From a virus: a stretch of DNA of 27,379 bases. A program made the translations under genes and the position numbers. The notes beneath the pieces were generated by a model. That model was not told the DNA's origin, did no database searches, and saw only the letters and a list, made by a program, of their open reading frames with translations. How positions within the stretch are numbered: the first letter of the stretch is position 1; each line of letters opens with the position of its first letter. The DNA lies in IMG/VR virus record IMGVR_UViG_3300044627_006928, positions 1 to 27,379 of that record, one strand, 5' to 3'. This document shows, one piece after another, positions 2,300-27,182 of this stretch.

Positions 2300-2746
2300 A
2301 TGGGATACGCAGTTTCAACAATTTATGATATCGGACAGAAGTTTTCTTCGTCCATCGACCAAGGCTCCATGTACATGGAGGTGTCGTACACCAACCCCTT
2401 GAAGTTTGATCCTACGCTGACGATCATGGAGCCTCGCTCCGAAGCAATCGTGGAGCCTACGGTGTCGAACTATGTCGCAGCCACTCGCCCGTTCTTCATG
2501 GGTTCGTTTGATGGCTTTTGGATTCACAAGGTCTACAACAACGGTATTCTTGTGATGACCGTGCAGACCGTTGATCAGGATATGTTCATTCCCGTGCAGC
2601 ATGACCGTGTTGAAAGCGTGTCGATGGGATACACGGAGAGCATTCCCTATGACGGCCCTGTGCGTCCTCCTGTGCCTGCTCCGGGCGTCGGAGCCATGCT
2701 TGGACTGGCTGCTCTGTTTGCCATCGGGCGCAGACGCTTCAGTTAA
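2300..2746 (+). CDS. Protein with PEP-CTERM-like C-terminal sorting tail
   Basis: A 148-residue protein. The first 120 residues look like a soluble beta-rich domain. The end is striking: a Pro-rich linker (DGPVRPPVPAPG, about 118-129), a 13-residue hydrophobic segment (130-142) and a closing GRRRFS. This three-part layout matches PEP-CTERM and related exosortase-type tails, whose VPAPG variants are common in environmental Gram-negative bacteria. A usual PEP-CTERM protein also has an N-terminal signal peptide, and none is visible here, so a simple C-terminal membrane anchor is the main alternative. The codon choice is richer in G+C than in the neighbouring AT-rich genes, so transfer from a host-like genome is possible. 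Gene assignment sure, role unsure. Confidence 0.65.
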   Translation: MGYAVSTIYDIGQKFSSSIDQGSMYMEVSYTNPLKFDPTLTIMEPRSEAIVEPTVSNYVAATRPFFMGSFDGFWIHKVYNNGILVMTVQTVDQDMFIPVQHDRVESVSMGYTESIPYDGPVRPPVPAPGVGAMLGLAALFAIGRRRFS

Positions 2747-2755
2747 ATAGTACAG

Positions 2756-3514
2756 ATGCACTACACAACAGTCTTTCTGTCAGACTTTCACCTTGCCTCC
2801 AAGAAGGCAAAGCACAAGCCTCTCATAGACTTCCTGAAGTCCAATACATTTGATAACATCTACTTGGTAGGTGACATCATTGACATTTGGAGATTCAAGG
2901 ACGCATTTTCAATGAAGCATGAGAAGCAGATTGGACAGGTTGAAGTCGTGGAAAGGCTGTTGAAACTTTCCCGTAAGGGAACCAAGGTTCATTACATCTA
3001 TGGAAACCATGACGAGTTCATGGCAAAGTTCATAGGACATGAAATATTTGGAAATATTTCTCTGTACGAGAGAATGGACTACAGCACCAAGACCGGAAAG
3101 AAGTTTCTCGTTCTTCACGGACATCAATTTGATCTCGTCACGAAGTATCCCATAAGTTCTTCAATCTACAAACTTGGAGATATTGGATATGAAATAATGC
3201 TTGACCTAAATGAAATATTCAATTGGTGTCGTCGTATCTTGGGAATGAGATACTGGTCTTTGTCGAAGTACGTGAAGATCAAGGTCAAGAGAGCAGCACA
3301 GTTCATCGAAAGCTTTGAAGAGGTCATATGCAGATATGCAAAGGACCGAAAGTATGATGGAGTGATCTGCGGGCATCTTCACAACCCGAAGATTACGGAA
3401 GTCAACGGGACGGTGTACGCAAACTGCGGATGCTGGACCGAGAAGGATAACTGCACGTTTCTTTACGAAGATGATTCGGGTGAGTTGAGGATCGGAACTT
3501 ATGCAACAGAGTGA
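2756..3514 (+). CDS. LpxH-like calcineurin-fold metallophosphoesterase
   Basis: A 252-residue metallophosphoesterase with the full motif set in order: SDFHL (9-13), GDIIDIW (39-45), GNHDEF (83-88), HGHQFD (121-126) and GHLHNP (206-211). The usual two-metal ligands are present. The DIIDIW run, the length and the order fit UDP-2,3-diacylglucosamine diphosphatase LpxH and its close relatives. LpxH cleaves UDP-2,3-diacylglucosamine to lipid X in lipid A synthesis at the inner membrane. Whether the phage enzyme acts on that substrate or another diphosphate is not shown by sequence. It starts 9 bases after the PEP-CTERM-like gene, and its last 14 bases overlap a small membrane protein gene, so it may belong to an envelope-related cluster. 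Confidence 0.85.
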   Translation: MHYTTVFLSDFHLASKKAKHKPLIDFLKSNTFDNIYLVGDIIDIWRFKDAFSMKHEKQIGQVEVVERLLKLSRKGTKVHYIYGNHDEFMAKFIGHEIFGNISLYERMDYSTKTGKKFLVLHGHQFDLVTKYPISSSIYKLGDIGYEIMLDLNEIFNWCRRILGMRYWSLSKYVKIKVKRAAQFIESFEEVICRYAKDRKYDGVICGHLHNPKITEVNGTVYANCGCWTEKDNCTFLYEDDSGELRIGTYATE

Positions 3515-4520: not shown

Positions 4521-4682
4521 ATGAAAACACTTTTAAATAAAATTGCAGTGCCAATCCTTGCTTTAATTTTTATCAATATCATTGGACTTACATACCATTA
4601 TAACTACGAGGGCGCAGTTGTTGGAAGCGTTGTTGGGATGATTGTTGGCTTTCTTGCATCAGAGATCAGAGCAAAGTTTTAA
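4521..4682 (+). CDS. 53-residue two-span membrane protein
   Basis: The frame runs from ATG at 4521 to TAA at 4682. The product starts MKTLLNKIAVPILALIF, has a first hydrophobic span at about 8-24, a short polar turn (TYHYNYEG), and a second Gly/Val-rich span at about 32-46 (AVVGSVVGMIVGFLA), ending SEIRAKF. It forms a small membrane hairpin. A GxxxG-like pattern in the second span suggests helix packing. No family is recognised. It lies between a promoter-like sequence and tRNA-Glu. Codon use and hydrophobic pattern support a real gene. Confidence 0.6.
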   Translation: MKTLLNKIAVPILALIFINIIGLTYHYNYEGAVVGSVVGMIVGFLASEIRAKF

Positions 4683-5205: not shown

Positions 5206-5648
5206 ACCCTTTTGTTGAGAATCATCCCGATCAGATCGACAAACTGATACAGGACTATCCCGTTGTCTTCCGTCACATGGATACCACGACAGTCTCCGGC
5301 CTCCCTGCTGGCTGGTACACGATCATGGATAATCTCTGCTCTGAACTCACTCCGCTTCTTGAAGAAGCCCTGCAAGAGAATCCAGAGACTCCCGAGGAGC
5401 CTCTGTTCAGCATACTGCAGATCAAGGAGAAGTTCGGTGGTCTTCGTTTTTATTATACGATGAACACCAAGAACGATGATCTCTACAGAAAGGTCCAGGC
5501 AATGGTTGACAATGCCGAGGACGCTTCCTACGAGACTTGTCAGATTACGGGAAAGCCCGGTGTTCTGTGTAAGAGCGGTAGTTGGTACATGACTCTTTGC
5601 GAAGAGTCTAGAATCTCCATGGGTTACAAGATTATTGGCAATGGATAA
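5202..5648 (+). CDS. Conserved-looking phage protein with Cys pair region
   Basis: A 148-residue protein starting MNPFVENHPDQIDK. A longer frame from 5181 exists, but the ATG at 5202 overlaps the previous TGA as ATGA and has AAAGGAAAAGA upstream, so it is preferred. The centre contains ILQIKEKFGGLRFYY (about 78-92), and the last third holds YETCQITGKPGVLCKSGSWYMTLCEE with three Cys. I have seen the combination of KFGGLRFY followed by Cys-containing turns in phage proteins of unknown role, and a small metal site is possible. It overlaps the SpoU methyltransferase gene by 8 bases. Confidence 0.65.
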   Translation: MNPFVENHPDQIDKLIQDYPVVFRHMDTTTVSGLPAGWYTIMDNLCSELTPLLEEALQENPETPEEPLFSILQIKEKFGGLRFYYTMNTKNDDLYRKVQAMVDNAEDASYETCQITGKPGVLCKSGSWYMTLCEESRISMGYKIIGNG

Positions 5649-6183
5649 CAGAAACCTAATCGATCACTATAAGTACTGGACAGACGATGCAATTCGCGCA
5701 GATTTGGATATACGGCGTTTTAATTATTCAGTTGTCTGTTGTAATATTGGCAATGATTTTAATATTGCAACCGTCATTCGTAACGCTAATGCGTTTCTTG
5801 CAAAAGAAGTGGTTATATATGGAAATAAAAAATATGATCGTAGGGGCACGGTGGGCACTCACCACTACACTAATTTTAATCATGTTAGGACTGTTGATGA
5901 TCTTTCAGAATATTTTCGAGGAATCCGAGGAGAGGTTCGACTCCTAGGAGTTGATAACGTCAAGGATTCGATAAACATCAATGATTATGATTTTTATCCA
6001 AATATTCATTATGTAATGATTTTTGGTCAGGAACAGATAGGCGTACCTCAAAACGTACTAGATATGTGTGATGACATTCTTTATATTCCCCAGTACGGTT
6101 CTGTGAGAAGTATAAATGTTGGAACTGCGTCTGGAATTATGATGAATGCATATTGTACTAAAATATCTTCCTTCGTGGTGTAA
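5641..6183 (+). CDS. SpoU/TrmH-family RNA 2'-O-ribose methyltransferase
   Basis: A 180-residue SPOUT enzyme with the three SpoU motifs: motif 1 NDFNIATVIRNANAF (38-52) with the conserved Asn and Arg, motif 2 MIFGQEQIGVP (126-136), and motif 3 YIPQYGSVRSINVGTASGI (148-166), which forms the SAM-binding trefoil knot. Family members methylate the 2'-OH of a ribose in tRNA or rRNA. Given the phage tRNAs around it, a tRNA target is plausible. The start is ATG at 5641 (overlapping the previous gene); TTG at 5635 is less likely. Its last 15 bases, encoding SFVV and the stop, are also the 5' end of tRNA-Gln. Confidence 0.85.
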   Translation: MDNRNLIDHYKYWTDDAIRADLDIRRFNYSVVCCNIGNDFNIATVIRNANAFLAKEVVIYGNKKYDRRGTVGTHHYTNFNHVRTVDDLSEYFRGIRGEVRLLGVDNVKDSININDYDFYPNIHYVMIFGQEQIGVPQNVLDMCDDILYIPQYGSVRSINVGTASGIMMNAYCTKISSFVV

Positions 6184-6263: not shown

Positions 6264-6524
6264 ATGAAAAAAATGAAACCAGTCGGTAAGTGGATTTTAG
6301 CAGATTCTTTAGTAGGTGGAGAAAAAACCACAGAGGCAGGAATCATCTTTCAAGAAAAATCAAAATCAAAGATCATTCCAGCAAAAGTTGTTGCCGTTGG
6401 AAATAACTTAACTGAAGATATAAAAGTCGGTGATACAATTTGGTGGGATGTTACAAAAATCCGAGATGGACACGGCGGTTCCCATGTAGTCCATCAAGAC
6501 TGGGTTGAAATGGTTGAGAGATAA
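6264..6524 (+). CDS. GroES/Cpn10-like co-chaperonin
   Basis: An 86-residue protein of the usual Cpn10 length. It shows the typical opening beta strands (MKPVGKWILADSL), a mobile-loop region carrying EKTTEAGIIFQEKSKSK (about 20-36), and the AKVVAVGNN...VGDTIWWD segment that matches the Cpn10 core (KVVAVGxG...VGDxV). It should cap the host GroEL ring and help fold phage proteins, as gp31 does in T4, though at 86 residues it looks closer to bacterial GroES. A good ribosome binding site (AAAGGAAAG) precedes the ATG. It is the last + gene before the minus block, and a hairpin follows at once. Confidence 0.85.
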   Translation: MKKMKPVGKWILADSLVGGEKTTEAGIIFQEKSKSKIIPAKVVAVGNNLTEDIKVGDTIWWDVTKIRDGHGGSHVVHQDWVEMVER

Positions 6525-7472: not shown

Positions 7473-8321
7473 TCATAAACTCAAACTTTGATCTTGTTTT
7501 GATTTTAGATAATCGTTCATCTTATCCAAGTATCCAAGATTTCTAAGTTCCTTGAATACCAAATTTTCTATAGAAAGCTCTCCACCTTTTTTCAGTGAAG
7601 AATTTCTCATATTTTTAAATTTTTCTTTTAACTTTTGAAATGATTCATCTTCAGCATTGCTAGAGATCAAAGAATCAATTTTTTGAGTAAAATGATCTAC
7701 TTTATTTTTTAAATGTGGGTCTTCCAAATCAACATCTTGTTTCTCTGGATGTTTTATCCATTCACCTTTTGTGAGGCTGTAAACCCCTTGGTCACTTGGT
7801 GTGGCTTCATTTATATCTTGAGCATAAAGTTCTACATCGTGACCATAAATTGTTATATCGTGTATTTGTGTCCACATCAATTTTTTATCTTTTAGATAAT
7901 CATCAAGCAAATCTGGGCAATCTTGCATTTTATCTTTGTCGATTAAAATATGGACATCCAGGTCTGAGTAATTTGTATAATTGTAATTTGCATTTCCACC
8001 AACAAATAAGATATCAAGTATTGCTTCTTCAGGAATGTTAGCAAATTCTGACCACGCCTGTCCTATTTCAAGTAACTTCTCTTTTACTTCTGGCTTTAGG
8101 TCATCATTTTGCCAAAATTTTGGATTTAATTCGTCGTGATATTGAAGAGTGAGCGAAGCAGCTTCTTCAAGGTGCTCTTTAAATGTCTTCTTTTTCTTTT
8201 GTTGGGATATATGAATTGCAGTTAATTGCTGTTCTGCTTCTTTTTCAGAACTATGTGTTCCAAGGACTTTTTTTCCTTCAGAATCCATTACAACCCATTT
8301 ATTTCCTTTGTTTACAATCAT
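7473..8321 (-). CDS. Nucleotidyltransferase-fold late protein
   Basis: A 282-residue protein with two parts. Residues 1-40 (KWVVMDSEGKKVLGTHSSEKEA, then a short helix) look like a small module found at the start of various phage proteins. Residues 100-170 read as a nucleotidyltransferase fold: LFVGGNANYNYTNYSDLDVHI gives the GG/GS loop (108-109) and the two metal Asp residues (120, 122), and HDVELYA supplies a third Asp (162). TFKEHLEEA (46-54) between them contains an LEE/A site like those cut by T4-type prohead protease. Substrate unknown; tRNA, antibiotic or protein nucleotidylation are all possible. The late promoter ATAAATA ends 5 bases before the ATG, with no ribosome binding site. Confidence 0.7.
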   Translation of the reverse strand: MIVNKGNKWVVMDSEGKKVLGTHSSEKEAEQQLTAIHISQQKKKKTFKEHLEEAASLTLQYHDELNPKFWQNDDLKPEVKEKLLEIGQAWSEFANIPEEAILDILFVGGNANYNYTNYSDLDVHILIDKDKMQDCPDLLDDYLKDKKLMWTQIHDITIYGHDVELYAQDINEATPSDQGVYSLTKGEWIKHPEKQDVDLEDPHLKNKVDHFTQKIDSLISSNAEDESFQKLKEKFKNMRNSSLKKGGELSIENLVFKELRNLGYLDKMNDYLKSKQDQSLSL

Positions 8322-8326
8322 AAAAT

Positions 8327-8333
8327 TATTTAT
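8327..8333 (-). promoter_or_regulatory. Late promoter element ATAAATA
   Basis: ATAAATA, ATTTT, ATG: the same layout as at 7456. It lies just downstream of the tmRNA terminator, so the nucleotidyltransferase gene starts its own transcript. Confidence 0.75.
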
Positions 8334-8338
8334 GGCAA

Positions 8339-8374
8339 TAAAAAACCCGGTTTTTCAGATGCGGGAAAACCGGG
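8339..8374 (-). terminator. Rho-independent terminator of the tmRNA
   Basis: On the minus strand CCCGGTTTT pairs with AAAACCGGG around a 10-11-base loop and is followed by a run of T. It closes the tmRNA transcript shortly after the tag stop codon. Confidence 0.9.
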
Positions 8375-8375
8375 A

Positions 8376-8660
8376 AACCCCACTGCTTTAAGCAGCCATT
8401 GCCATTTCGTTGGCAATTAAATTTGCAACTGTTGTTTCACGTTCCTCGTTGCCAGTAACGGGTATCTCCTTCTTCAATACTTTACGACAGTCGAAGCCAG
8501 TTCAGCCCCTTATTGACCTGAAGCCTAGGACTTCAGGTCGTGCCCCGCTGCTACGAGGACTTGGATCGCCATCTCTAAGGAATTGCAGTATCCTTCGGTT
8601 AGGCTAATGGAGCCGAGGGGAATCGAACCCCTGTGTTGCCGTATTTCTATCCAATATCAA
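8376..8660 (-). ncRNA. ssrA: Circularly permuted two-piece tmRNA
   Basis: On the minus strand the acceptor part comes first. The T arm AGGGG-TTCGATT-CCCCT (8632-8616) runs into CGGCTCCA, whose discriminator A is at 8608. After about 98 bases the coding part starts with GGGGCTGAACTGGCTTCGAC at 8509. GGGGCTG pairs with CGGCTCC over 7 bp, with a G3-U70 wobble, the alanine identity signal. GTCGTA (8488-8483) pairs with TACGGC (8643-8638) as helix P2. The resume frame 8426-8388 encodes ANLIANEMAMAA and a TAA stop, a normal degradation tag ending in Ala-Ala. The intervening part contains a perfect 9-bp hairpin near 8516-8540, a likely processing region. CCA is not encoded. tmRNA rescues stalled ribosomes. 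The 5' limit of the acceptor piece is approximate. Confidence 0.93.
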
Positions 8661-8670
8661 CAATACCAAA

Positions 8671-8758
8671 GCGTAGCGAAGGACTTGCACCTCTGTTGCT
8701 CTGTATCAAATCACCCCTTGCAAGTAGGCGATTCTAGTCAGCGTTAACTGAACTACGC
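8671..8758 (-). ncRNA. tRNA-like structured RNA upstream of tmRNA
   Basis: On the minus strand GCGTAG (8758-8753) pairs with CTACGC (8676-8671) and encloses several arms. TCAG/CTGA forms a small hairpin. AATCGCCT with GGGTGATT forms an 8-bp helix around CTTGCAA-like loop bases. GAGG-TGCAAGT-CCTT resembles a T arm. The text TAGTTCAG...TAGAATC also resembles a tRNA D arm. No arrangement gives a proper tRNA: the D loop lacks GG, position 33 is C in the best loop, and the T loop has G at position 55. It may be a decayed or unusual tRNA, or a leader of the tmRNA precursor. Confidence 0.4.
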
Positions 8759-20591: not shown

Positions 20592-20619
20592 ATTATATCA
20601 CATATTATATAAGACGCAA
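20592..20619 (-). promoter_or_regulatory. Sigma70-like promoter for the exonuclease gene
   Basis: Minus-strand TTGCGT (20619-20614), 16 bases, TATAAT (20597-20592). The box pair lies in and just after the end of the upstream gene. It would express the exonuclease earlier than the flanking virion genes. Confidence 0.65.
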
Positions 20620-21492
20620 GGCCGTTGCATATCTTAATCCAATAGCTTCTCTTCCCAAATTTACATAAGCTGGTAAAAGAAATCCTTGTTCACCTGTTCT
20701 ATAAGAATCCATCGAACTACCACCAATATCAATTTTTGGACTTCTCGTTCGGCGTATTAAATTTGTCACACCGGCTATTGGTGGTGCAGATGGTTTTACT
20801 GGCTCTTCTTTTGGAAGAGGCTTTGTTTCTTCTTTTGGAGGAGTTCTCGTTTCTTCTTTTGGAGGAGTCCCAGTTTCATCTTTTGGAGGAGTTTTAGTTT
20901 CTTCTTTTGGAGGAGTCTTTGGCTCTTCTTTTGGAGGAGTTTTTGGTCTTGTAGAAGGAATCTCCTCTGGTTTTGGTTTTGGAGATGGAACCTCATCAGG
21001 TTTTGGTTTTGGCTTTTGGCCTGGGATCTCATCTGGTTTTGGCTTTTGGCCTGGGATCTCGTCTGGTTTTGGCTTTTGGCCTGGGATCTCGTCTGGTTTT
21101 GGTCTATACCCCGGTAACTCTTCTGGCTTTGGTCGTACTACAGGAATTTCAGCTGGTTTTGCTGGAGGAACCGTTGGTTGTGTTGTTGGTATTTCAACTG
21201 GCTTTGTTGTCGGTATTTGAGTTGGGACTTCTGTTGGTACGGGAGCTGTAGACGGCGATGGGGCTGTAGCTGGTTTTGGTTTTACTACAACTACATTTTT
21301 TGGTGTAGTCATAGTTGGTCTTACGGCTGTTCTTCCACCAGTTTCTGTTGCAGTACGTGTTGCTGTTTTAGTTGCCTGTTTTGCTCCTTGACTTAAAGCT
21401 CTTCCAACTGCACGAACTGCAGCTCCAACGAATTCATTTAAATTTTCTTGGTATCTTTGCTCCAACAGTTCTTCAACTAGTTTATTTTTCAT
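20605..21492 (-). CDS. Pro-rich repeat protein, probably internal virion protein
   Basis: A 295-residue protein with three zones. The helical start MKNKLVEELLEQRYQENLNEF contains an LLE site of prohead-protease type, followed by an Ala/Thr-rich helix (VGAAVRAVGRALSQGAKQATK). Residues 70-235 are Pro/Lys/Glu/Thr repeats: about four decapeptides of type PKPDEIPGQK, then six octapeptides of type KTPPKEET. Residues 236-295 look folded (VTNLIRRTRSPKIDIGG...ALRLI). The middle is probably an extended rod. The ATG overlaps the previous TGA as ATGA. It belongs to a set with the next two genes upstream, all repeat-rich. Confidence 0.7.
   Translation of the reverse strand: MKNKLVEELLEQRYQENLNEFVGAAVRAVGRALSQGAKQATKTATRTATETGGRTAVRPTMTTPKNVVVVKPKPATAPSPSTAPVPTEVPTQIPTTKPVEIPTTQPTVPPAKPAEIPVVRPKPEELPGYRPKPDEIPGQKPKPDEIPGQKPKPDEIPGQKPKPKPDEVPSPKPKPEEIPSTRPKTPPKEEPKTPPKEETKTPPKDETGTPPKEETRTPPKEETKPLPKEEPVKPSAPPIAGVTNLIRRTRSPKIDIGGSSMDSYRTGEQGFLLPAYVNLGREAIGLRYATALRLI
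20800..21110 (-). repeat. Tandem codon repeats of 24 and 30 bases
   Basis: Within the Pro-rich gene a 30-base unit is repeated three times almost exactly (about 21021-21110). A 24-base unit encoding KTPPKEET-type octapeptides is repeated six times (about 20800-20945). Unit lengths are multiples of 3, so copy number can change without breaking the frame. Confidence 0.8.
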
Positions 21493-22784
21493 TGTGAACT
21501 CTCTTTTGCTTTTAATTCTGCTACTTTTTGTGCAATACGAGCAGAACGCCCTTCAGCTCTTGATTGTTCTGCAGCCTGTTTTCTTGCTATTTCTGCTTGT
21601 TCTTCCTCATCTTCTCTTTGATTTTGAGCTATCTTACTTGGATCTCCGCCTGCAACACCTTTTGGCTTTTCATTCAAGTCGCCCATTCCTGCAGTTAAAG
21701 CATTTCCGGCTAGAATATTTGTTGCACTGCGAACAAGTGGGTTATATTGATATAATTTTTCCCCAAATCTTTGGTGCGTGCTTTTTGCGTTTCCTGTTTC
21801 TCCTGGAAGTTTATATTCTATTTCACCGACTTTTTCTAATCCTTTTCCTAATACTGCGCCAGCAGCTCCTGCTGCGGCAAATGGAAGAACTGCAGCTGCT
21901 CCCAATCCTGCAGCTGCACCTAACCCTGCACCACCGAGTGCAGAGGTTGTTGCGATGTCTGTTGCCATACCAACACCAGTTCCAACTGCAGTACCAGCAA
22001 TATCTTTTATATTTTCATCTTCTACACCAAGAGCACCTAAAGCTGATCGTGTGGCTTCATCGGCACCCCACCCTGTCGCCAAACCGACACCGAACCCCGT
22101 TAATTTTTTTGGAAAAGAGAGTTTTGATTTAGGTGCAGAAGGTTTTGGTTTTGCTTGTACTGGCGGCTCTTGTGGATATTTTGGTGGAGTTCCAGAAGGT
22201 TTTGGTTTTGCTTGCACAGGTGGTTCTTGTGGTGGTGTTCCGGAGCCTTTTGTTTCTGGCATCCCATAACTTGTAGGTTTAGTTAAATTTTCTAAATCTT
22301 TGGCACTTTGACTTAAATTTGAATTTGAAAAATAATTTCGTACACCTTTATAACGAATGCTTGGGTCACCCCACGAAGATGGGGTTTTTATGTCTGCAGC
22401 ATTTGCTGTGCCCTGTGTCGATGATGAGCTAACGGTTCCTTTAGCTGTGGAATTTGCATTTGCTCTGGCTCTTTCTTGAGTTCTCATTCTTCTTTGTGCC
22501 GAATCAGAAGTGCGAGAAGCTTTTTGAGCTTTTTGTGAAATATATTTTGCTGACATTTGTCCAAGATTCTCTTTAGATCCCGACTGCAAACGCATCTCAT
22601 CTCTAGCAGCATCTAACAATTTTTTATCATCTGCGGAGAGCTGGTGCATGCCACCTTGCCTTAAGCGTCTTAATACATTATCAAGGTTCTCGTCTTCTTT
22701 TATAAAAATCATGTACTCAAGAATAGTTTTTTGAGCATCAAGAGATTCACAAATATTTTTATAATGTTCTGTTAAGTAGTTCAT
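21489..22784 (-). CDS. Gly/Ala-zipper protein, probably membrane-active virion protein
   Basis: A 431-residue protein. Residues 1-75 are a helical domain (MNYLTEHYKNICESLDAQKTI..., with an ICE/S site of prohead-protease type). Residues 75-215 are low complexity with two PPQEPPVQAKPKPSGTP-like copies. Residues 225-320 are a long Gly/Ala-rich hydrophobic region (GVGLATGWGADEAT, GTAVGTGVGMATDIATTSAL, then GAGLGAAAGLGAAAVLPFAA) with a GxxxG pattern typical of glycine-zipper, membrane-inserting segments. The end is charged (EEEQAEIARKQAAEQSRAEG). Such a protein could help form a channel for DNA entry; this is inference. AGGA lies 8 bases before the ATG. Confidence 0.65.
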   Translation of the reverse strand: MNYLTEHYKNICESLDAQKTILEYMIFIKEDENLDNVLRRLRQGGMHQLSADDKKLLDAARDEMRLQSGSKENLGQMSAKYISQKAQKASRTSDSAQRRMRTQERARANANSTAKGTVSSSSTQGTANAADIKTPSSWGDPSIRYKGVRNYFSNSNLSQSAKDLENLTKPTSYGMPETKGSGTPPQEPPVQAKPKPSGTPPKYPQEPPVQAKPKPSAPKSKLSFPKKLTGFGVGLATGWGADEATRSALGALGVEDENIKDIAGTAVGTGVGMATDIATTSALGGAGLGAAAGLGAAAVLPFAAAGAAGAVLGKGLEKVGEIEYKLPGETGNAKSTHQRFGEKLYQYNPLVRSATNILAGNALTAGMGDLNEKPKGVAGGDPSKIAQNQREDEEEQAEIARKQAAEQSRAEGRSARIAQKVAELKAKESSQ

Positions 22785-22785
22785 A

Positions 22786-24399
22786 TTATATCCTGTAAGA
22801 AGATGCTTTTGTTTGTTTTATTGGTTGAGCTGTTTTTATTGATGAAAATGATGCTTGAGGATTCATTTGATTCAATTCTCTAAAACCTGGTTCAAGATTA
22901 TCATTTTCAGACGATGGAACAAAGCCAGACAATGACGCAGGCTTTGATGCAGCTTGTTCAAAGCTACCCGTTGGTTTTTGTTGCGTGCCTCCAAATAAAT
23001 TATTTGTTTTTTGTGAAACTTGTGAACCAGTTTGAGTAGAAGATGTAGAAGTAGTTGGAGGCGTAGAAGCAGTGGTGCTAGTGCCTGTTGGTTTTGGGGT
23101 GCTGCCCGAAGTACCAGCAAATTTTCCAGACTGTTGTTGGTTGGCGGCTGCAATTGCTTCAGGACTTGCTCCTAAATTTGACATCGACCCTGGTTTTGTT
23201 GATGGAGTTTTTCCAGCCGCACGGGAAGCTGCTTCAGATGCAGATACTTGTGGAAGACCTCTCTTAGATCTTTCCGCAGCAATAAATTCGTTTCTTTTTT
23301 TATCCCACTCCTGATAACTTTGACCCGACGCTGGACGAGCTAATTCTGGTGGTAAATTTATTTTTTCTTTCTGTTTAGCCTGTGTATCGTTTCTATATTT
23401 TAAATCACCTGAAACTCTTTTAGCAATATCACTATCGCTCATATCCATGTCGCCGCGAAGTTGTTGTTGAAATTTCATCTTATTTCTTGCAACAGCCATT
23501 CTTCCACTTTCACTCATTTTGCTAGTGTCTAGCTGTTCAATTGCAGCAAGACGTTGTTCTGCTTCTAATTTCTTTTTTGCATTTTGTTTTTTGTAGTAAT
23601 CTGTTCTTGCAGATGAGAATTTTTCATCCTCGGTTGGTTCTTTTTTCTCTGTTGCTTTTGCTGCATCAGCTGCTTCTTTTTCTTTTTGCGCTCTGGCTGC
23701 GGCTTCTCTTTCTTCATCTGCAGTAGGAACGGCAGGCCCTTCAGTATCAACTCCAGCTGTTGCCGGTTTCGCTTGTGCTGCCTGTGCTTCTCTTTCTTTT
23801 ACAAAGTCAGGTTTTACACCATATCTTGCACCGGTACTAGTTGTTTTTATAGTAGATCCCGCAACTTGTGCTTCTGCCTCTTCCGTTTCCTCTTCGTCTT
23901 GTTTTTGTAATTCTAATTGTTTATCTCTAGTAGCTTGTGCAGCAGCTTCTTGATCCCTTAAACTTACATACTGTTTTCTTTGTTCCGGTGTGGCATTATT
24001 TGGATCAATGTCTCTGAGCTGTGTTTGGATATCTGCCAATTCTCTTGCACTAGTTTGAAGCGTGTCTTGGTTAAATTTTTCTTCATCTTGCTCGTATATT
24101 TTTTTAACAGATTCAGTCAAAGAACGAAATGGATTGCCTGCAATGTTTTTTGTAAAAGCAACTATACTTGGCGTCCCATTATTTTTTATTTCTTGCGACT
24201 TATTGATTGCTTTTTTGACAGCCGATGTCATATTTTCATTATAAGAAACAGTGGGGGCTGGTTTTGGTTTGCTGGTTTCTAGCAAACTTTTAACAGTATT
24301 AACTACTGATTCTGTCTTAGGTTTCACGTTAAAGTTAGGTTTTTTTGTCAAGAAATCCTTGACTTCCCAGTAAAATTGTTTATCTTTTTTATTATCCAT
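22786..24399 (-). CDS. Large Ala/Gln/Lys-rich late protein with shared repeat cassette
   Basis: A 537-residue protein. The start MDNKKDKQFYWEVKDFLTKKP is followed by a helical region with SLLETSKP and NPFRSLTESVKKIYEQDEEK. A long charged, probably coiled-coil region (about 100-350) is rich in Glu, Ala, Gln and Lys. The C-terminal 150 residues are Ser/Thr/Pro/Gln-rich and contain SMSNLGASPEAIAAANQQQ, a cassette found again in the protein at 25950-27182. Low complexity and the late promoter (CTAAATA, 10 bases before the ATG) suggest an internal head, ejection or tail component. There is no enzyme motif. It ends 1 base before the next gene. Confidence 0.7.
   Translation of the reverse strand: MDNKKDKQFYWEVKDFLTKKPNFNVKPKTESVVNTVKSLLETSKPKPAPTVSYNENMTSAVKKAINKSQEIKNNGTPSIVAFTKNIAGNPFRSLTESVKKIYEQDEEKFNQDTLQTSARELADIQTQLRDIDPNNATPEQRKQYVSLRDQEAAAQATRDKQLELQKQDEEETEEAEAQVAGSTIKTTSTGARYGVKPDFVKEREAQAAQAKPATAGVDTEGPAVPTADEEREAAARAQKEKEAADAAKATEKKEPTEDEKFSSARTDYYKKQNAKKKLEAEQRLAAIEQLDTSKMSESGRMAVARNKMKFQQQLRGDMDMSDSDIAKRVSGDLKYRNDTQAKQKEKINLPPELARPASGQSYQEWDKKRNEFIAAERSKRGLPQVSASEAASRAAGKTPSTKPGSMSNLGASPEAIAAANQQQSGKFAGTSGSTPKPTGTSTTASTPPTTSTSSTQTGSQVSQKTNNLFGGTQQKPTGSFEQAASKPASLSGFVPSSENDNLEPGFRELNQMNPQASFSSIKTAQPIKQTKASSYRI
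23099..23202 (-). repeat. Repeat cassette copy A (104 bases)
   Basis: These 104 bases match 26893-27059 with one base change, once the extra 63-base unit in the second copy is left out. The copies lie in two different late genes about 3.8 kb apart and encode the same 21-residue segment plus flanks, so a recent duplication or gene conversion is likely. Confidence 0.9.
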
Positions 24400-25949: not shown

Positions 25950-27182
25950 TTATTTCTTTGGGAAATCGTACCATTTTCCGGTAGAGTCAGCTCTAAACTT
26001 CATGAATTGATCCACGTTTACTGGATCTGCTTTTGCTCCAAGTCTGGCTTGCATTTCTTCATATGCTTTTCTTCCAGATGCTGTTGGTGTATTTGCTGCT
26101 CTTTGTCTTTCACCAATTTCTGCCATAGATGAGGGATCTGTTCCGGGTCTTGCTGCATTTGGTGCAGCTTCTGGTTGTTGATAATTTTTTCCAGTGTATG
26201 GATTTACTGGCAATCCTTTTGGCTTTGGTGTTGCCGCACCACTTGGATTCATTGCTGCCTGCTCCAATTCAGAACGAGACATAGATGGTTTTGCTGGTTT
26301 TGGTTTAGAAGCACCAAATCCAGATAATAAATTTGTAATTTGGTTCATTAAATCTTTTGATGAATTATTAAAATTATACGCTGGTTGTTTTGCTGGCGAA
26401 GGTTGCGTTCCCAACAATTGACCTACACTAGGAACACCACTGGTTTGTGTTGTTTGTGCTGGTGTTGTTGTTTTGAGTGCATCTTTTACCATTCCTGTAT
26501 TGAATGAAGCTCTTTGTTGATTTGCCCAATCTGAGTTTGGACCAATAGATGTTGGTTGTGGCTTTGTCCCACCTTGAACTGGTGCAGGTGATCCTTGTGC
26601 GGGAGGAGTTGGGACATTTGGATCTCTTGCCAAAAGTGGCGGTGGGGCTGGTGCCTTTACAGGTGGTTTTGTTCCACCTTGAACCGGAGCTGGCTGTCCT
26701 TTGGCGGGAGGAGTTGGGACATTTGGATCTCTTGCCAAAAGTGGTGGTGGAGCAGGTGCTTTTGCTGCCTGCTTTGGCTTAGAATACATTTGCTGACTTA
26801 CTCTTTGAGAGGGTTCATTTGCCAAATCTTTCATTCTTTTTGCTTTATTAGCAGCCATCAACTCCGCTGTGCTTTTTCCGGTTTGATTTGGCGTGCTGCC
26901 CAAAGTACCAGCAAATTTTCCAGACTGTTGTTGGTTGGCGGCTGCAATTGCTTCAGGACTTGCTCCTAAATTTGCAAATTTTCCAGACTGTTGTTGGTTG
27001 GCGGCTGCAATTGCTTCAGGACTTGCTCCTAAATTTGACATCGACCCTGGTTTTGTTGAGCCAGCTTTAAAAGTAGAAGCTGGTGCCTGCTCAATCAAAG
27101 AATTAATTTTAGCTTCTAAATTTTTTAATTGTTCTGCTAAAACTTCTGATTTGTTTTTATAAAAATTTGTTAATTGGTCCAT
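25950..27182 (-). CDS. Repeat-rich late protein, probably virion
   Basis: A 410-residue protein. Residues 1-35 form a coiled-coil start (MDQLTNFYKNKSEVLAEQLKN, with an LAE site of prohead-protease type). Two exact tandem copies of a 21-residue unit (LGASPEAIAAANQQQSGKFA plus one residue) lie at about 50-91. Two 35-residue copies of PPPLLARDPNVPTPP-containing sequence lie at about 145-214. The rest is Pro/Ala/Gln/Ser-rich, with a more folded last 70 residues (KAYEEMQARLGAKADPVNVD... KWYDFPKK). The cassette is shared with the gene at 22786-24399. GAGGAAC gives a ribosome binding site, and the late promoter is 17 bases before the ATG. Confidence 0.75.
   Translation of the reverse strand: MDQLTNFYKNKSEVLAEQLKNLEAKINSLIEQAPASTFKAGSTKPGSMSNLGASPEAIAAANQQQSGKFANLGASPEAIAAANQQQSGKFAGTLGSTPNQTGKSTAELMAANKAKRMKDLANEPSQRVSQQMYSKPKQAAKAPAPPPLLARDPNVPTPPAKGQPAPVQGGTKPPVKAPAPPPLLARDPNVPTPPAQGSPAPVQGGTKPQPTSIGPNSDWANQQRASFNTGMVKDALKTTTPAQTTQTSGVPSVGQLLGTQPSPAKQPAYNFNNSSKDLMNQITNLLSGFGASKPKPAKPSMSRSELEQAAMNPSGAATPKPKGLPVNPYTGKNYQQPEAAPNAARPGTDPSSMAEIGERQRAANTPTASGRKAYEEMQARLGAKADPVNVDQFMKFRADSTGKWYDFPKK
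26562..26766 (-). repeat. Two tandem 105-base coding repeats
   Basis: Unit period is exactly 105 bases (35 codons), with scattered base changes between copies, so this duplication is older than the 63-base one in the same gene. Confidence 0.85.
26893..27059 (-). repeat. Repeat cassette copy B with perfect 63-base tandem duplication
   Basis: Bases 26912-26974 and 26975-27037 are identical 63-base units (21 codons). Outside the extra unit the block matches 23099-23202 with one change. The unit ends share an AAATTT word that could have helped slippage or unequal exchange. Confidence 0.92.

Follow-up and report, generated by a model that had tools for sequence, protein, structure and literature searches.

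A conserved phage protein family with a PEP-CTERM-like tail and no signal peptide in uncultured T4-like lake phages

The locus and its C-terminal tail

The window, that is the whole viral DNA stretch of 27,379 bases analysed here, carries on its plus strand an open reading frame (positions 2300-2746) that encodes a protein of 148 amino acids with the C-terminus PPVPAPGVGAMLGLAALFAIGRRRFS and has 50 viral relatives. An acidic, beta-rich N-terminal domain (residues 1-124, positions 2300-2671, plus strand) with the family-specific core FFMGSFDGFWIHK and no signal peptide, described from charge counts and low-confidence fold models, is followed by a PEP-CTERM-like tail, VPAPGVGAMLGLAALFAIGRRRFS (positions 2672-2743, plus strand), delimited by the TIGR02595 profile and by alignment and composed of a VPxP motif, a short hydrophobic helix and a basic end. 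In the focal protein VPAPG leads into about 13 hydrophobic residues, and GRRRFS forms the very end. With the NCBIfam profile TIGR02595 (PEP_CTERM), residues 125-147 score 16.7 bits versus a cut-off of 16, and a six-frame search with the same profile places the match at positions 2672-2740. Taken alone, this match is borderline. The Pfam profile PF07589 stays below its cut-off (13.1 versus 20.7), as does the MYXO-CTERM profile (12.4 bits versus 20). The preliminary description had likened the tail to the architecture of exosortase substrates, and this likeness is borne out by the TIGR02595 score and by the retention of the tail in all 50 relatives. Of the two outcomes that it had named as refuting it, the lack of a profile match and homologues with unrelated anchors, neither was observed.

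The N-terminus, MGYAVSTIYDIGQKFSSS, contains no hydrophobic stretch and no signal peptide. As the frame spans only 150 amino acids from stop to stop and an in-frame stop lies two codons upstream of the ATG, a longer N-terminus is impossible and the missing signal peptide is not an error in the choice of start site, which confirms what had been noted earlier on this point. Because the protein passes the NCBIfam cut-off and has the expected architecture but fails the Pfam cut-off and lacks a signal peptide, its C-terminus is here termed PEP-CTERM-like, denoting a putative rather than a proven exosortase substrate.

In the bacterial PEP-CTERM/exosortase system (EpsH; TIGR02595, PF07589, PF09721), such a tail serves to direct proteins to the cell surface by way of the enzyme exosortase. 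With this system the focal protein shares the Pro-x-Pro motif, the short helix, the basic C-terminal cluster and a TIGR02595 score above cut-off, and some of its relatives have a literal PEP. It differs in being encoded by a phage, in lacking a signal peptide, in having no exosortase in the same genome and in occurring, as a rule, in one copy per phage. While the motif of the PEP-CTERM domain is a near-invariant Pro-Glu-Pro, that of the window is PAP and those of the family are mostly PAP or PSP. A signal peptide, which the focal protein lacks, is said to be present in about 97% of PEP-CTERM proteins of bacteria (PMC1569441). The tripartite build of the tail also recalls the MYXO-CTERM/myxosortase system (TIGR03901), but the window tail is without the invariant Cys of that system; in some relatives a Cys precedes the motif.

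Downstream of the focal gene lies a gene for an LpxH-like metallophosphoesterase (positions 2756-3514, plus strand; PF12850, E 2.6e-14). This enzyme and small membrane proteins had been pointed out as neighbours, and both are real; the LpxH-like gene, however, adjoins the focal gene in only 5 of 16 loci. It is probably an incidental neighbour, and a role as functional partner of the focal protein was rejected for this lack of conserved adjacency. Other genes of the surroundings include a small membrane protein, MKTLLNKIAVPILALIFINIIGLTYHYNYEGAVVGSVVGMIVGFLASEIRAKF (positions 4521-4681, plus strand), found near the focal gene in 11 of the 16 loci, a SpoU-type RNA methyltransferase (positions 5635-6183, plus strand; 14/16) and a small GroES-like co-chaperonin (positions 6264-6524, plus strand; PF00166), conserved in 10/16.

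Two fold models of the family suggest a beta-rich domain but are weak (mean pLDDT 43 and 53). Such a domain, together with the fact that a virion protein would not need a signal peptide, could fit a virion or injected protein whose tail becomes active on insertion into the membrane of the next host cell. The focal gene nevertheless has small genes around it, in a region rich in tRNAs, and on the large contigs gp23 lies at a great distance from it. Fold searches with the two models returned no match, including none to virion proteins. Both points make this explanation highly improbable.

Conservation and specificity of the tail

Five IMG/VR scans yielded 50 viral loci with relatives of the focal protein, at identities from 96% down to about 31%. 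The combination of P-x-P, short hydrophobic helix and basic end is present in every one of the 50, the motif being shifted in L055 (PVPSAG), and none ends in an unrelated anchor. Across all relatives the distance from motif to end is 21-27 residues with 2-5 basic residues, and the hydrophobic stretch measures about 13-15 residues. An alignment of 23 sequences shows an invariant P126 and a conservation of at least 90% for V125 and P128. The letters of the helix and linker differ widely, and the motif itself takes the forms VPAP, VPSP, CPSP, VPEP, CPEP and IPSP, with a literal PEP in L024 (DVPEPTGVALIGIAAAITAFRKRKA), L025 (HVPEPSIVLICMVFLVLIGKRSLSRF) and L072 (CPEPATGMLIALSGAVLFGRKRKS). TIGR02595 matches all nine members of the first alignment. 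No viral relative has a conserved N-terminal hydrophobic stretch or signal peptide. The N-terminal domain has a net charge of -3 to -11 in 46/46 distinct relatives, and the tails are all basic.

Among close relatives, substitutions are mostly synonymous (dN about 0.02-0.05 versus dS about 0.2-0.4, per site) in domain and tail alike, so that dN/dS is well below 1. The family is restricted to one phage clade in the collections searched, usually with one copy per phage. No homologue was found in isolate phages, and two scans of genomes detected none in bacteria, although such degenerate-pattern scans may miss distant ones.

The specificity of the profile was examined by six-frame TIGR02595 searches of 49 phage records, in which the only matches were to the focal protein or to other PEP-CTERM proteins. 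Focal copies exceeded the cut-off in 23 of these 49 records, and the focal protein was the sole match in 10/17 records. The same search, which does yield matches in the related phage records, gave none in eight unrelated isolate T4-like phages, and TIGR02595 likewise had no match in 14 control genomes. Ten phage sequences contain 514 non-overlapping open reading frames of 100-220 amino acids, of which 12 have a hydrophobic and basic C-terminus; eleven of these contain P-x-P, namely nine members of the focal family and two signal-peptide-bearing PEP-CTERM proteins, while the twelfth is unrelated. A chance resemblance to PEP-CTERM is ruled out by the 50 relatives that keep the tail and by these controls.

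The resemblance may instead be due to convergence, with a proline linker and a charged helix end forming a plain inner-membrane anchor. The lack of a signal peptide in all relatives and the missed Pfam cut-off would agree with such an anchor. It is made unlikely by the position of P-x-P directly before the helix in 50/50 relatives, including literal PEP forms, by its presence in 11/12 of the hydrophobic and basic C-termini of these genomes, and by a hydrophobic stretch that is shorter than usual for an anchor. Signal peptides are, moreover, present in unrelated proteins of these phages that bear this type of tail, as described below.

The phage clade and its putative hosts

Judged by the T4-type genes present in its members, the phages carrying the focal family are assigned to an uncultured clade of T4-like lake phages. 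The gp23 major capsid protein (PF07068) is encoded in G004, G008, G009, G017, G018, G019, G041, G042 and G043, and G018 possesses UvsW, UvsY, a family B polymerase, a class II ribonucleotide reductase and ThyX. The 27 kb of the window lack gp23 and contain an exonuclease whose type is known from T4-like cyanophages. Both gp23 and the exonuclease are nearest to cyanophages (about 50-57%), and as gp23 reaches only about 57% with its nearest isolates, which are Synechococcus phages, no isolate stands close to the clade. A cyanophage with photosynthesis genes was rejected, as no match to the psbA/psbD family was found in the 16 records searched. Genes for surface-sugar modification (Gmd, fucose-synthase-like, GT11, FkbM and DegT) occur in clade genomes. 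No exosortase was detected in 48 related phage records, and a phage-encoded enzyme is thereby ruled out for these records.

Three related phages, G048, G042 and G017, encode PEP-CTERM proteins which are unrelated to the focal family and have apparent signal peptides (judged by eye). The G048 protein (L126:5470-6003), starting with MRNPLLATTVLALAATNASQA and ending with VPAPASVALLLCAPVFGFRRKR, overlaps the focal stop with its start by 8 nt. A G042 protein with the end VPSPGTFALALCSCALGSNRRRK (L120:3442-4122) overlaps the focal start with its stop by 4 nt, and a second one in this phage, again with an apparent signal peptide, ends with VPAPGAIALVGLAAFFMSRRRL (L120:6673-7305). The G017 protein (L142:892-1566) has an apparent signal peptide and the end APAPSAIALLGLAGIVGRRRR. 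These canonical proteins thus have the same type of tail as the focal protein, and in G042 and G048 one of them overlaps the focal gene, but they differ from it in their signal peptides and, for the two searched, in a distribution limited to one or two viral contigs per protein, in contrast to the clade-wide focal family. A third PEP-CTERM-type tail in G042, NIPSPSGIYLFAMGGMFGSRNRS (L120:7318-8010), belongs to a protein with no clear signal peptide, and the cluster at L120 1164-8010 comprises a pseudopilin, a dockerin-repeat protein and the three PEP-CTERM-type tails beside the focal gene.

The pseudopilin (PF07963) and the dockerin-repeat protein of G042 have gp23 on the same contig. Dockerin repeats are present in G017, G034 and G042; in G017 they are found both in one protein and at the C-terminus of another, a secreted subtilisin-like protease. 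The protease gene (L174 558-2009, minus strand; two repeats) adjoins apparent structural genes of a T4-like phage, and in G034 the repeats lie within a proline-rich protein (L208 658-1821) with a start that resembles those of the window proteins at 25950-27182 and 21489-22784. For Planctomycetota and related groups, dockerin repeats of the form DGxVDGxDLGxLLxxWG are typical, as are such pseudopilins. Dockerins have been reported from freshwater Planctomycetes (PMC6461901), and PEP-CTERM occurs in Planctomycetes (PMC1569441). The signal-peptide-bearing PEP-CTERM proteins, dockerin repeats and pseudopilin of the relatives therefore suggest that the hosts are probably exosortase-bearing and probably Planctomycetota, a suggestion derived from genes of related phages, the window itself containing none of the planctomycete-type genes. 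On the earlier question of whether homologues occur in exosortase-bearing hosts, these genes give indirect support, but the phages were linked to no host genome: the two scans of genomes turned up no homologue, and a plasmid search for host gene donors provided no host information.

Possible roles and further features

A phage protein that uses or mimics the host sorting system, as envisaged in the preliminary description, is suggested by the sequence data and consistent with all findings. The reading we favour, with a probability of roughly 0.55, is that the family is a core accessory protein of this clade, that its tail is a true PEP-CTERM-type signal to the host exosortase, and that it probably becomes a processed surface protein. 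Support for it comes from the profile match and its specificity, the tail conserved in all 50 relatives, the charge pattern, the canonical PEP-CTERM proteins and planctomycete-type genes of related phages, and the surface-sugar genes of the clade. In this reading the helix would be lodged in the inner membrane of the host, its basic end facing the cytoplasm and the acidic N-terminal domain lying on the other side. This N-out/C-in orientation, which is the topology of exosortase substrates, is favoured by the positive-inside rule, given an acidic domain and a basic tail. The host exosortase would recognise VPxP and cut the protein or transfer the domain to the cell surface, where the displayed domain may alter the infected cell's envelope and, for instance, block the adsorption of further phages.

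The missing signal peptide is a real difficulty for the exosortase-substrate reading, as it leaves the crossing of the membrane unexplained. Lacking it, the domain would need N-tail translocation, which would be the likeliest route for some 125 residues. In E. coli, about 100 residues of ProW are moved in this way. Further points against the favoured reading are the PAP motif of the window with its score below the Pfam cut-off, the lack of an exosortase in the 48 related phage records, the lack of planctomycete-type genes in the window and the known distribution of permuted tmRNAs such as that of the clade, described below. A more tentative proposal is that the family gains access to the exosortase of the host although it has no signal peptide, with the result that infected cells, which are probably planctomycetes, either display the phage protein or have their surface sorting jammed.

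The tail could alternatively serve as a decoy or inhibitor: by imitating an exosortase substrate it would keep the enzyme occupied and prevent the sorting of host surface or polysaccharide-associated proteins. A small protein, usually in one copy per phage, with a tail constrained more in its motif than in its letters, would suit such a function, and so would the other surface-remodelling genes of the clade. As the predicted site of exosortase action is the periplasmic side (PMC1569441), however, a decoy would need the same N-out insertion; a conserved domain of 125 residues exceeds what a decoy needs, and the neighbouring phage PEP-CTERM proteins resemble ordinary substrates. We regard the decoy as improbable, somewhat more so than the plain anchor.

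A search of the open-access literature found no paper on phage-encoded PEP-CTERM proteins. If the favoured reading, recognition of the tail by the host exosortase, is true, these phages take advantage of a surface-sorting system of which both the enzymes and the products are poorly known, and the family offers compact natural substrates or inhibitors for exosortase tests. The tail would also be a marker that helps to connect uncultured T4-like phages of lakes with hosts that possess an exosortase, probably Planctomycetota, and entry without a signal peptide would represent both a new phage-host interface and a new route into PEP-CTERM sorting.

The window further contains a permuted (two-piece) tmRNA (positions 8297-8697, minus strand; RF04321, 78.4 bits) with the tag ANEMAMAA. 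Permuted tmRNA scores above cut-off in 25/49 clade records, with tags such as ANELAMAA, ANQLAMAA and ANRLAMAA, and occurs with a different tag, GEDNFALAA, in the Pelagibacter phage Mosig. Permuted tmRNAs are known mainly from Alpha- and Betaproteobacteria and Cyanobacteria (PMC11915505). Being common to the clade and a Pelagibacter phage, the molecule was rejected as a host marker and may be a trait of the phage lineage. Elsewhere in the window, two neighbouring proteins on the minus strand (positions 22786-24399 and 25950-27182) have the repeat GSMSNLGASPEAIAAANQQQSGKFA in common, partly doubled in the second, and KPKPDEIPGQ repeats are found at positions 20605-21492 on the same strand.
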